The notes under the pieces: model-generated | Seen by the model: only the letters and a program-made list of their open reading frames with translations | Databases searched by the model: none | What the model was told of the DNA's origin: nothing | Assembly: GCA_022826185.1 (NCBI GenBank) | Contig: JAJDVH010000027.1 | Span: 1 to 43,716, forward strand | Reading direction: 5' to 3' | DNA length: 43,716 bases | Origin: Alphaproteobacteria bacterium | GTDB lineage: Bacteria > Pseudomonadota > Alphaproteobacteria > Bin95 | Part shown: in pieces, positions 33,198 through 43,716 of the stretch | How the letters are laid out: each line of letters starts with the position of its first letter | Numbering within the stretch: position 1 is the first letter of the stretch | Made by a program: the position numbers and the translations under genes

Positions 33198-33902
33198 TTA
33201 CGGGCAGCCCAGCCGGTCGGCGAGGTCGATGAAGTCTTCCGCCACGACGGTGAAGCCGGGGTCGGCCTCCAGGTCGGTCGTCTGGCCGGGGCCGTGCTCC
33301 GTCCGGCGGGGCACGAAGGCGGTCGCCATGCCCTGGGCGGCGGCGGCGTGCAGGTCGCCATTATGGGCGGCCGTCATCATCACCTCTTCCGGCGCGAGGC
33401 CGAGCGCGGCGCAGCTCAGCCGGTAGGCGTCCGGCTGCGGCTTGTAGGCCCGCGCGACTTCCGCGCCCAGGATCGTATCCCAGGGCAGCCGGGCATGGCG
33501 GGCCATGTTCACCATGAGCGCGATATTGCCGTTGGAGCAGGTGCCGATGATGTATTTGCGCTTGAGCCGCGACAGGCCGAGCACCGCGTCCGGCCACGGG
33601 TCGAGGCGGTGCCAGGCGCGGTTGAGGTCGTCCTTCTCGGCTTCGCTCAGGCCCTCGACGCCGAACTCCTCCAGCAGGGCCTCCAGGTTCTTCCGGTGCA
33701 GCACGTCGAGGATGGTGTAGGGCCTCGCCCCGCTGCGGACTTCCTCCATCGCGGGCTGGTAGCGGTCCCGCCAGCGCCGCGCGAAACCGTGCCAGTCGAG
33801 ATCGTGTCCCTTCGGCGCCAGCGCCTTCTTGGCCTCGCGGGCCACCGAGCCGCGCCAGTCCACCACCGTGCCGAACACATCGAACAGAAGCGCCTTCACC
33901 AT
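33198..33902 (-). CDS. Haloacid dehalogenase type II
   Basis: A 234-residue L-2-haloacid dehalogenase-type HAD enzyme. The nucleophile is Asp8 in LFDVFGTVVDWR, Arg in the SVARE loop, Ser-Asn in GTCSNGNIALM, Lys in ARAYKPQPDAYR and a late NGDLHAA motif; the family Asp in the usual HxxD position is replaced by the NGD sequence. It displaces halide (or a related leaving group) from 2-halo acids. ATG 33902 follows GGAGGGGAGG. Its upstream region holds the lone repeat end at 33995. Confidence 0.88.
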   Translation of the reverse strand: MVKALLFDVFGTVVDWRGSVAREAKKALAPKGHDLDWHGFARRWRDRYQPAMEEVRSGARPYTILDVLHRKNLEALLEEFGVEGLSEAEKDDLNRAWHRLDPWPDAVLGLSRLKRKYIIGTCSNGNIALMVNMARHARLPWDTILGAEVARAYKPQPDAYRLSCAALGLAPEEVMMTAAHNGDLHAAAAQGMATAFVPRRTEHGPGQTTDLEADPGFTVVAEDFIDLADRLGCP

Positions 33903-33994
33903 CGCCGGTCCTCCCCTCCGCAACCGCGCCGACAGACTGCCTCCGCGCCTCCGCGCCCGCAAGCGCGGGCCGTGCCGGCGAGAGGCGCAATGCG

Positions 33995-34025
33995 TTATAC
34001 CAGCGGTCGCGATTCAGGACTCATG
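33995..34025. repeat. Lone left end of the MITE-like repeat (B)
   Basis: TTATACCAGCGGTCGCGATT followed by CAGGACTCATG matches the left ends of copies A (28335) and C (34646). No partner right end is found in the following 450 bases, so this is a decayed or solo end. It lies in the 583-bp gene-free stretch 33903-34485, which otherwise holds about 150 bp without recognisable features and the direct repeat R1. Confidence 0.55.
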
Positions 34026-34172
34026 TTGAGGGCGTCCGGCTTGCCTCCCCTCCCGCCCGGCATTACCGGATTCACGCATCTGTCTTCGGCGGCTTCGCGG
34101 CGCACGCCCCCGACCGTCGCCCCGGCCCGGAATGCCGGGCAGTACGAAACGGCTCCGCTCCGGTTCCCGTCG

Positions 34173-34440
34173 CCGGCATTCCATGAAAAATCTCCGGCAG
34201 TTTCATTTTTTGTTCCCGGACGGGCTTGACATTTGGCGGTATGGTGTAGAATGAAAGTAGAGAGAGGCGGCTTCCGGGGCCGCCTTTCGGCGTTTCTGCA
34301 GAAAGCGACCGGCTGGGGGCCGAAAAAGCCCCCGGCGGGAACGGACGGGCGAGGTGCGCCCTGCGTCTCGCGCGCGCAATCAGGCGCGCGAACCGCGCCG
34401 GCGCCGACACCCGCCCGCGCCCGCACGCGAAACGCGCGCA
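34173..34440. repeat. Long direct repeat, copy R1
   Basis: Begins CCGGCATTCCATGAAAAA and is nearly identical to 43431-43716 in the same orientation, with small indels. The strongest conservation runs from the promoter hexamers (34226) through about 34430. The two copies bracket the 9-kb catabolic module (34941-43382). No transposase or integrase is present in either copy. Contents are described under the promoter and RNA entries. Confidence 0.85.
34226..34252 (+). promoter_or_regulatory. Candidate promoter in repeat R1
   Basis: TTGACA (34226-34231) and TAGAAT (34247-34252) match sigma-70 hexamers well but with a short 15-base spacer. Both hexamers and spacing are kept in copy R2 although the spacer bases differ. 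Transcription would start near 34259. Confidence 0.5.
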
Positions 34441-34485
34441 AAACAGGGACGCCCCGTCCCGCCCTTTGCCCGAAAGGAGGCACGC
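34259..34485 (+). ncRNA. Candidate structured leader RNA or small RNA (copy 1)
   Basis: Downstream of the candidate promoter lie several hairpins: GGCGGC/GCCGCC at 34266-34284, the palindrome TTTCTGCAGAAA at 34293-34304, GCTGGGGGC/GCCCCCGGC around loop CGAAAAA at 34312-34336, and CGCGCGC/GCGCGCG around AATCAG at 34371-34390. The last two stems are preserved in copy 2 by paired changes. The region ends at AAAGGAGG and the ATG of a small ORF, so it could be a regulatory 5' leader; a free small RNA is also possible. No known riboswitch class is recognised. Confidence 0.45.
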
Positions 34486-34905
34486 ATGACCGCAACCGAC
34501 CCCCGCCCGGCACCGGCCCGTTACGCCGAGAGGCCCACCCCCAACGCCTGCCAAGCGCGAGGGGAGCGCAACGGAAGGCCTCCGGACACGCCCGAATACA
34601 GCGCATGGCGCGAACGGCCGAAGCGCCGCGAAGAGCGCGAAAAGGAATACCAGCGGCATCGACTTCAGACTCATGGGAAGATCACGCCCCCTTTCGTCAC
34701 CCCGGCCCCCGAGCCGGGGTCCATCCCTGACTCGCGCCGCTGCCGCAGTCGGTGGAGAGCAGGCTCGACCGCTGAAGCTGCCGCCAGGACCGAGGCTGGG
34801 CCCCGGCTCGGGGGCCGGGGCGACGGTGGAGGTGGCTCCGCCATCGGTTCCGGTCAACGATCGTTGGTAGAAGACGCCGCGGCGCGCCTCCATGACATCG
34901 CATGA
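34486..34905 (+). CDS. Small basic hypothetical protein, 3' end altered by repeat insertion
   Basis: The ATG at 34486 has an excellent ribosome-binding site (AAAGGAGG, 5 bases upstream). The first 54 residues are hydrophilic and Arg/Pro-rich (DTPEYSAWRERPKRREEREK). From about codon 55 the frame runs into repeat element copy C (EYQRHR... onwards) and goes on to a stop at 34905, giving 139 codons. The original protein was probably about 55-70 residues and has lost its own stop. It follows the conserved leader in repeat R1. I do not recognise the family; whether it is made is uncertain. Confidence 0.4.
   Translation: MTATDPRPAPARYAERPTPNACQARGERNGRPPDTPEYSAWRERPKRREEREKEYQRHRLQTHGKITPPFVTPAPEPGSIPDSRRCRSRWRAGSTAEAAARTEAGPRLGGRGDGGGGSAIGSGQRSLVEDAAARLHDIA
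34646..34872. repeat. MITE-like repeat element, copy C
   Basis: About 227 bp with left end AATACCAGCGGCATCGACTT and, on the minus strand, right end starting TTCTACCAACGATCGTTGAC, matching copy A at 28335-28540. It holds an internal 29-bp inverted repeat at 34695-34723 and 34797-34825 (two mismatches), the same architecture as copy A though the palindrome sequence has diverged. It interrupts the 3' end of the small ORF at 34486. The rest of the stretch to 34940 holds three 10-bp tandem units. Confidence 0.65.
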
Positions 34906-34920
34906 CATTTCATGACACTT
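34891..34920. repeat. Three 10-bp tandem repeats
   Basis: Three consecutive 10-mers each beginning CATGACA (CATGACATCG, CATGACATTT, CATGACACTT). They lie between repeat element C and the stop of hyuB. One turn of helix per unit would suit a protein-binding array, but the run is short. Confidence 0.5.
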
Positions 34921-34940
34921 CGGCAGGGGTTCCCGCCGTT

Positions 34941-36575
34941 CTATTCCGGATTGTTCTCGAAGCCGTCCAGCCGGTCGCGCTCGGCGAGGGCGGCGTCGCG
35001 CTCGGCGGCCGGGCCGTAGCCGCCCCCGCCGCCGGTGCGGACGGTGAGGCGGTCGCCCCGGCTGAGCGGGAACTGCTGCTTCGACCTGAGCGGAATCCTC
35101 TGCCCGCCGCGCTCGACGAAGGTTTCCGCCTTCGCGCCGGGGCCGCCGCCGAACAGGCCCTGGGCGGCGAAGCGGAACCGGTCTCCGTAGGTCGCGAAGG
35201 TCACGCCGTCGTCGAGGATCCGGTAGATGCGCTGGAAGCCCATGCCGCCGCGCTGCCGCCCGCCGCCGCCCGAGGCGGAGCGCAGGCTGTAGTCCTCGAC
35301 GCGGAAGAACGGATAGTCGCTCTCCATCGCCTCGATCGGGATGTTCGAGCAGTTGGACAGCATCGAGTCGACGGCGTCGCAGCCGTCATTCTCCGGCCCC
35401 GCGCCGTAGCCGCCGCCGAAGATCTCCAGATAGATGTTGTAGCCACCGTCATGCTTGTAGCTGAGGCAGCTGACGGTGGTCGTGTCGAAGCCGGGCGCGA
35501 TCACCCTGTCCGGCACGGCCCCGGCGAGCGCGTTCATCACCGCGTTCACCACCCGGTAGCTCGGCAGCAGGCGGGCGCGCACCGGCGCGGGCGGCCGCGG
35601 ATTGACGAGGCAGCCGTATGGGGCGGTCACCGTAATCGCGCGCTCCGCGCCCTCGTTGAAGGGTATGTCGGGGTCGGTCAGCACCGCCTTTATGCAGGCG
35701 ATGGCCGACGAGACCGTGGAGGCGAAGGGGCTGTTCATGTTGGTGGCGACCTGGCCGGCGGTGCCGGAGAAATCGACCGCAATCGAATCGCCCTCGACGG
35801 TGAGCCTGGCGCGGATCGGCACCGGCTCGTCGCCCGCGCCGTCATCGTCCAGCCAGGCCTCGCCGCTATAGGCGCCGTCGGGCGCCGCGCGGATGGCGGC
35901 CCGGATGCGGCGCTCCGAATAGTCGAGCATCTCGTCCATGGCCGCGAACACGGTTTCCGCGCCGAACTTGCGGCAGAGCCCCCTGAGCCGCTCGCCGCCG
36001 ACGGCGTTGGCGGCGAACTGCGCATTGATGTCGCCGATGGTGGCCTCGGGCATGCGCACATTGGCGCGCACCAGCCGCTCGAACGGGCCGCCGTTCCAGT
36101 CGCGCTCGACCGACCAGCGGCTCGGCGGAAAGGTGATGCCTTCCTCATGCACGTCGCCGGCATCGGGGTTGAGGCCGGGCGCGCCGCCGCCGAGGTCGAT
36201 ATGGTGGACGACCGTGGCCGTCACCCCGACCAGCAGGCCGTCCAGGAATATGGGCGAGAACAGGAAGATGTCCGGCAGGTGCTGCCCGCCGGAATAGGGG
36301 TCGTTGTTGACGAGGAAGTCCCCCTCCCGGAGCGTCTCCAGCGGGTGGTGCTCCAGGCAGGCGCGGAAGGTGTGCGTGACGGAGCCGAGCTGGATCGGGA
36401 TGAGGTCCGCCTGGGCCACGACCCGCCCCTTGCGGTCGAGGATCGCGGCCGAACAGTCCTGCGCCTCGCGGACGACCGGGGAATGGGCCGAGCGGATGAG
36501 CTTGATCCCCATTTCGTCGGCCGCGGCGATCAGCGCCTGGGTGATGACGGCCTGGTCCACCGACGAGACCTTCAT
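34941..36575 (-). CDS. hyuB: Hydantoinase B/oxoprolinase family protein (second copy)
   Basis: A 544-residue HyuB protein with ALIAAADEMGIKLIRSAHSP, DFLVNNDPYSGGQHLPDI, VVHHIDLGGGAPGLNP, NMNSPFASTVSSA, and the Gly-rich C-terminal GGGGRQRGGMGFQRIYR and GGGGGYGPAAERD segments. Together with HyuA it should open a cyclic amide or act on a related carboxylation substrate with ATP. ATG 36575 has AAAGGAGG upstream and overlaps the hyuA stop by 4 nt. It is only distantly similar to the hyuB at 6047, so the two complexes probably have different substrates. Confidence 0.92.
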   Translation of the reverse strand: MKVSSVDQAVITQALIAAADEMGIKLIRSAHSPVVREAQDCSAAILDRKGRVVAQADLIPIQLGSVTHTFRACLEHHPLETLREGDFLVNNDPYSGGQHLPDIFLFSPIFLDGLLVGVTATVVHHIDLGGGAPGLNPDAGDVHEEGITFPPSRWSVERDWNGGPFERLVRANVRMPEATIGDINAQFAANAVGGERLRGLCRKFGAETVFAAMDEMLDYSERRIRAAIRAAPDGAYSGEAWLDDDGAGDEPVPIRARLTVEGDSIAVDFSGTAGQVATNMNSPFASTVSSAIACIKAVLTDPDIPFNEGAERAITVTAPYGCLVNPRPPAPVRARLLPSYRVVNAVMNALAGAVPDRVIAPGFDTTTVSCLSYKHDGGYNIYLEIFGGGYGAGPENDGCDAVDSMLSNCSNIPIEAMESDYPFFRVEDYSLRSASGGGGRQRGGMGFQRIYRILDDGVTFATYGDRFRFAAQGLFGGGPGAKAETFVERGGQRIPLRSKQQFPLSRGDRLTVRTGGGGGYGPAAERDAALAERDRLDGFENNPE

Positions 36576-43382: not shown

Positions 43383-43484
43383 TCGCCGACCCGGCCATAC
43401 CGGCGAAGTGCGGTCCGGACCTCGTTTCCACCGGCATTCCGTGAAAAAATATCCGGCATTTTCATTTTATGTTCCGATAGGGGC

Positions 43485-43511
43485 TTGACTTTCCCCCATA
43501 TGGTGTAGAAT
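43485..43511 (+). promoter_or_regulatory. Candidate promoter in repeat R2
   Basis: TTGACT (43485-43490) and TAGAAT (43506-43511) with a 15-base spacer. Hexamer positions and spacing equal those of copy R1 although spacer bases have changed, which argues that the hexamers are under selection. Confidence 0.5.
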
Positions 43512-43517
43512 GAAAGT

Positions 43518-43716
43518 AGAGAGAGGGGCGGCTTCCGGGGCCGCCTTTCGGCGTTTCTGCAGAAAGCGACCGGCTGGGGCCGCGAAAAAGACCCCGGCGG
43601 GAACGGACGGGCGAGGTGCGTCCGGCGTCTCGCGCGCGCAATCAGGTGCGCGAACCGCGCCGGCGCCGACACCCGCCCGCGCCCGCGCGCCCCCGCCGCC
43701 GCGATACGCGCGAAAC
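43518..43716 (+). ncRNA. Candidate structured leader RNA or small RNA (copy 2, partial)
   Basis: The same hairpin series as copy 1. The third stem is GCTGGGG/CCCCGGC (43573-43579 with 43592-43598), one pair shorter on both sides than in copy 1. The fourth is CGCGCGC with GTGCGCG around AATCAG (43633-43652), where a G.U replaces a G-C pair. The 3' end, including any downstream ORF, lies beyond the window. Confidence 0.45.

Follow-up and report, generated by a model that had tools for sequence, protein, structure and literature searches.

Small interspersed repeats of bacteria, which include MITEs and, for example, Correia/NEMIS in Neisseria, ERIC and YPAL, have been reviewed as high-copy, intergenic sequences that are non-autonomous through internal deletion, are structured when transcribed and in some cases carry promoters or ORFs (PMC2229807). 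Terminal inverted repeats and an A+T-rich composition are usually given as features of MITEs (PMC2229807). BOX elements of Streptococcus pneumoniae have fixed ends, a variable middle and a predicted RNA structure; they proliferate within one species group, some are expressed and some hold ORFs, and in streptococci their modules are ordered boxA-boxB(n)-boxC (PMC3049150). The Bordetella bprJ repeat, found in Betaproteobacteria, is a multicopy sequence of ~90 bp which combines mobile-element features with transcription as a small RNA (PMC3110155).

We analyzed a window of 43,716 nucleotides, which forms an entire contig (G000:C107) of an alphaproteobacterial draft genome (G000; 4.48 Mb, 279 contigs). 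The original prediction had described two near-identical loci in this window, and a global alignment of 34170-34440 against 43431-43716 confirmed both the loci and their positions. Copy 1 (about 34170-34440) and copy 2 (about 43431-43716, cut by the contig end) are near-identical from the AT-rich upstream and promoter region to ~34430, with small indels, and belong to the same dispersed family. The reported sequence differences are also present, with GGGGG/CCCCC in one copy against GGGG/CCCC in the other, and a C to T change in the CAATCAGG(C/T)GCGCG arm. The observation itself is real; its count of two, however, compares with ~110 copies in the draft genome.

The full unit consists of a promoter, a structured leader, an ORF and a CATGACA tail. 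Its 5′ part comprises an AT-rich promoter, a GC-rich leader of ~230 nt and a ribosome site, followed in the 3′ part by an ATG, the ORF and a tail in which CATGACA recurs every ~10 bp. Copies start with an AT-rich stretch, then GTTCCC-N4-GGGCTTGAC and a -10 element of TAGAAT or TATGAT, downstream of which lie hairpin 1, hairpin 2, the core, an AAGGAGG-type ribosome site and the ATG. Leader and ORF are strongly G+C-rich, the unit being AT-rich only upstream of the promoter. Conservation per column across 82 copies is at background level ~80 nt upstream of the anchor and reaches 98-100% in the -35 region. In diverged copies from other species, a CTTGAC/CTTGCA-type -35 and a T/A-rich -10 are kept while the surrounding sequence has changed.

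All features of the two copies lie on the + strand. The AT-rich 5′ end of copy 1 (CATGAAAAAT..TTTCATTTTTTGTTCCC-N4-GGGC, 34175-34225) is kept upstream of the -35 and leads into a promoter predicted at 34226-34252, with TTGACA at 34226-34231 and TAGAAT at 34247-34252. A strict sigma-70 scan omits this promoter because the spacer is 15 nt. The leader then places hairpin 1 at 34262-34288 (arms 34262-34271 and 34279-34288), the predicted hairpin 2 at 34311-34336 (arms 34311-34320 and 34328-34336, GGCTGGGGGC/GCCCCCGGC) and the core domain, taken from a 61-sequence alignment, at 34339-34462, within which GCAATCAGGCGCGCGAACCGCGCC (34376-34399) is near-invariant. A ribosome-binding-site-like AAAGGAGG (34474-34481) precedes the ATG of the copy 1 ORF at 34487; that the leader runs into an ORF with a ribosome site, as had been claimed for this copy, is seen in most copies. 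Copy 2 retains the upstream region, promoter, both hairpins and core (43434-43716, to the contig end), with its promoter predicted from TTGACT (43485-43490) and TAGAAT (43506-43511) and its core 24-mer match at 43638-43661. In three other copies (L017, L243 and L269), AGGAGATGGCATGAATGGGG and unrelated sequence follow the ribosome-site region and replace the usual ORF start.

We compared the leaders of diverged copies for evidence of pairing. Hairpin 1 shows compensatory changes above controls, which is real covariation: across 38 diverged copies, 88.5% of cells are paired, and two-sided changes occur in 29 cells, spread over five of the ten pairs, compared with 11.7 (sd 3.6) in shuffles, a control that ignores the relatedness of copies, and at most 17 in slid-partner controls, which agree. 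Hairpin 2 corresponds to the GGGGG/CCCCC stem that had been proposed as conserved, and, as judged by eye, folds of single diverged copies predict it repeatedly, with arm sequences that differ considerably. The second proposed stem, CGCGCGC/GCGCGCG, had been thought to be kept by matched change; this was not supported, as the core-domain helices that include it (12 predicted pairs) contain no two-sided change in 61 sequences. The core domain is conserved in sequence but not visibly in pairing. The 5′ domain folds with an energy little below that of shuffles (mean z -0.8), so the structure rests on covariation rather than energy. Thus, the leader is structured as predicted, but its statistical support comes from hairpin 1 and not from the two stems originally cited.

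Several other assignments were considered for the leader. Coding sequence was rejected, since the conserved blocks are separated by insertions whose many different lengths are not multiples of three. A long-range GGGA..TCCC pairing around the core, drawn by eye, varies in register between subfamilies and was discarded, as was a guide RNA of the omega-RNA type, for which inspection found neither a variable guide at either leader end nor a linked nuclease. Rfam 15 returned no matches in the window at gathering score, in agreement with the view that no known RNA family fits, and the sole Rfam match among 18 loci of diverged copies is a group II intron adjoining one copy.

We estimated copy number by pattern searches of the draft genome. 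The core 24-mer matches 110 times compared with 0 for the reversed pattern, and ATGAAAGTAGAGAGAGGCGGC, a 21-mer of the 5′ leader, matches 89 times with up to three mismatches compared with 0 reversed; a leader search scored the best 40 of 243 candidates as copies. Many copies lie at contig ends, where the assembly breaks, and the true copy number is therefore uncertain. The core 24-mer occurs 27-94 times in each of six out of seven congeners, and is absent from the seventh (G001) and from two sister-genus genomes. Among the matches listed from 84,980 species genomes the core appears only in uncultured Alphaproteobacteria bins, and the leader has no match in viral contigs, phage or plasmid collections. 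The covariance-model search suggested in the original prediction recovered matches in the own genome, but our model of the core (R1) gave none elsewhere among 289 genomes of the class when the best 12 candidates per genome were scored, which is weak evidence of absence. Copies are more alike within a genome than between congeners, whose neighboring genes are ~95% identical. Of the 40 copies examined that have enough flank in the own genome, 39 are located between predicted genes and the remaining one overlaps a gene call; in 26 of 37 cases, copy and upstream gene share a strand. The family is most likely composed of genus-specific, short mobile DNA elements.

An intact ORF of 323-344 aa is found inside the unit in four genomes (G002, G003, G005 and G006). 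Its N-terminus matches the small-terminase DNA-binding domain Terminase_2 (PF03592) in eight of nine members (best E 1.9e-12), and PDB profile matches also fall on small-terminase DNA-binding domains (E 4e-4). The protein comprises this ~50-residue N-terminal domain and a long acidic C-terminal half; structure prediction yielded a poor model (pLDDT 45.6). The leader lies 125-189 nt upstream of the terminase-like ATG, with its core at 140-189 nt in contigs that reach far enough, and the stop codon is located inside the tail. The ORF is under purifying selection, with dN/dS of 0.15-0.28 between copies over the first 210 codons. In the own genome the gene is seen only as fragments that lie at the ends of contigs, which is what a collapse of near-identical copies in assembly would produce. 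In one copy there (L296, G000:C191), unrelated sequence interrupts the ORF after ~52 codons, possibly another intron or insertion.

A second ORF family, beginning MTATDPRP and up to 202 aa long, follows the same leader, with dN/dS of 0.3-0.8. Copy 1 holds a degenerate member of 139 aa (34487-34906, + strand) which is not an intact gene and contains other inserted dispersed repeats; an intact 202-aa homologue is present in the congener G007 (L076). One of these repeats, ATACCAGCGGTCGCGATTCAGGACTCATG-like, occurs at 33995-34030 and 34648-34680, thus both flanking copy 1 and within its ORF, where a CCCCGGCCCCCGAGCCGGGG palindrome is also inserted; such repeats recur near other copies.

The Terminase_2 domain, together with a weak match of the MTATDPRP ORF to PHROG 31793 (E 8e-5), would fit remnants of a decayed prophage or phage satellite of which the packaging gene and site and the early leader are left. 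However, neither a large terminase nor any other phage gene adjoins the five intact copies checked. The neighbors of intact copies are instead metabolic or transport genes (DAO, CBS, HpcH/HpaI, CoA-transferase, SDR, cyclase and TonB-plug genes). The lack of the leader from phage, plasmid and viral collections and the spread of ~110 copies over separate sites also argue against phage remnants, and we give this origin only a very slight chance.

Most copies carry just a short, frame-shifted ORF remnant between leader and tail. These internally deleted copies vary widely in length, and in all of them both the promoter-leader 5′ end and the CATGACA 3′ end persist; retention of the leader is partly ascertainment, as most copies were found via the leader search, while the tail lay outside that search. 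The tail consists of CATGACA repeats in ~10-bp phase and ends in GCAGGGG. Its motif, CATGACANNNCATGACA, has 259 matches in the genome, whereas its reversed control has 0; the copy 1 tail (34891-34930, + strand) accounts for two of the matches and ends in CTTCGGCAGGGG. The start of a group II intron (Rfam RF02005; L007:1176-1400) lies either within one copy's CATGACA tail or immediately behind it.

In nearly all copies the promoter, leader and ribosome site stay joined to an ATG, two unrelated ORF families use one leader, and hairpin 1 covaries. These features would also fit a leader that acts in cis, riboswitch-like or autoregulatory, to control a large paralogous family that arose by ordinary gene duplication and whose short ORFs are working small proteins. 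In that case the short ORFs would not be expected to run in different frames and end in the tail or in other repeats, as they do. Copies also jump between sites while their flanks stay behind, and their greater likeness within a genome sits poorly with the ~95% identity of neighboring genes between congeners. We consider ordinary duplication of a leader-controlled family unlikely. A multicopy trans-acting sRNA family, with the ~230-nt leader as product and the rest as passenger, draws on the leader being the best conserved part of the unit with a near-invariant core motif, and other bacteria offer examples of small repeats that are transcribed and have mobile features (PMC3110155). Against it, no terminator-like site was found on the + strand within 33900-35000; a ribosome site and ATG, and not a terminator, follow the copy 1 leader, and in the intact form the leader runs into a protein under purifying selection; we regard an sRNA product as very improbable. 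The original prediction had offered these two options, a small-protein-family leader or a multicopy sRNA, and is partly supported: a promoter-leader unit does precede ORFs, but the copies are those of a mobile, mostly deleted cassette.

We searched for empty sites using the flanks of ten copies in five congeners. The cleanest site (L115) is filled in the own genome and empty in G004 (L139), and its 376-bp insert begins ~45 nt before the -35 and runs to ~12 nt past the last CATGACA. This insert has no terminal inverted repeats (local match score 10 compared with a shuffled mean of 10.4), and no clear target duplication is seen at the site. At a second, composite site (L112), empty in G005, the insert is ~655 bp with other repeats on both sides and is flanked by an imperfect ~11-bp repeat, GGCYTGGCGGG. 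At a third site, G003 carries a copy and G004 is empty. Thus, copies insert between genes, at positions that are unoccupied in sister species. Some flanks that are adjacent in congeners adjoin different copies in the own genome, suggesting that copies have recombined with one another. No transposase, integrase, reverse transcriptase or large terminase was found linked to the unit.

Copy 1 itself is located at a rearrangement, as the gene after the HAD-hydrolase gene differs in six congeners, and its site is therefore unusable as an empty-site test. The breakpoint is at ~34000: here the HAD-hydrolase gene is followed by copy 1 and a hydantoinase B gene, and in congener loci reaching past it by a lyase-like gene (MPVSIIDSGIYGNLFG...), or by another gene in G001.

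Covarying inverted repeats are also predicted for hairpins that act as single-stranded DNA, such as attC or HUH-element ends used as recombination or integration sites, with the promoter context incidental. A series of tandem units in G007 (L158, L159 and L160), each of leader core, short ORF and CATGACA, 330-350 bp apart and served by one promoter, does resemble a cassette array. Yet the hairpins lie between a conserved promoter and a ribosome site, the unit has neither a linked integrase nor a HUH nuclease, and the inserted DNA reaches well past the hairpins on both sides. A single-stranded DNA role in place of an RNA one appears quite unlikely.

We propose that the repeat is a genus-specific mobile family which needs its two kept ends and whose deleted copies are mobilized in trans, an explanation that we hold to be probable with moderate confidence. 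The kept ends would be cis-acting parts required by the spreading machinery; since both are retained in deleted copies, these may be mobilized in trans, like non-autonomous transposons. More tentatively, the terminase-like protein could serve the element as its own DNA-binding factor. Since small terminases bind DNA at repeated sites, the CATGACA array is a putative binding site of the protein. The folded leader may act in the transcript, either in translation control or as a mobilization substrate. A stronger version, that terminase-like protein, structured leader and CATGACA array together form the mobility system of a new class of element, with RNA taking part and dozens to about a hundred leader-tail derivatives per genome parasitizing intact copies, is doubtful at present.

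If this proposal is correct, a high-copy mobile family without a transposase carries a terminase-like DNA-binding gene behind a covarying RNA leader, and a phage packaging-protein domain has been reused outside phages. Through its deleted derivatives, each genome would receive promoters and leaders at about a hundred places, where they could rewire neighboring genes, and in these uncultured bacteria the copies would disrupt both assembly and synteny. It would become directly testable whether a DNA element depends on a structured RNA leader to spread.

Comparison with the described systems indicates what the cassette shares with each. It resembles MITEs in being high-copy and intergenic, in its internal-deletion derivatives that keep both ends, and in its empty and filled sites. 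However, it lacks terminal inverted repeats and is GC-rich rather than A+T-rich, one of its ends is a full promoter-leader-ribosome-site unit and the opposite end a tandem-repeat tail, and its coding copy encodes a terminase-like protein instead of a transposase. The cassette is modular like BOX elements, compared here by architecture only, but has a promoter at one end and a middle derived from a 330-aa gene. With bprJ, compared by description and with no sequence similarity claimed, it shares a multicopy repeat with mobile-element features. Its gene product shares the N-terminal ~50-residue DNA-binding domain of phage small terminases (PF03592 Terminase_2; SF6-type, PDB 2cmp and 3zqp), whereas the gene is solitary, encodes an acidic C-terminal half, has no phage neighbors in the copies checked, and occurs in many chromosomal copies with its own RNA leader and CATGACA tail. 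A literature search for a repeat family or mobile element built on a terminase small subunit found nothing relevant, and the combination of promoter, leader, terminase-like gene and tail is unmatched by any described family that we searched. Since the inverted-repeat and A+T-rich features of MITEs do not apply, we have not placed the cassette in a named family; it is most likely a new variant among the small dispersed mobile repeats.
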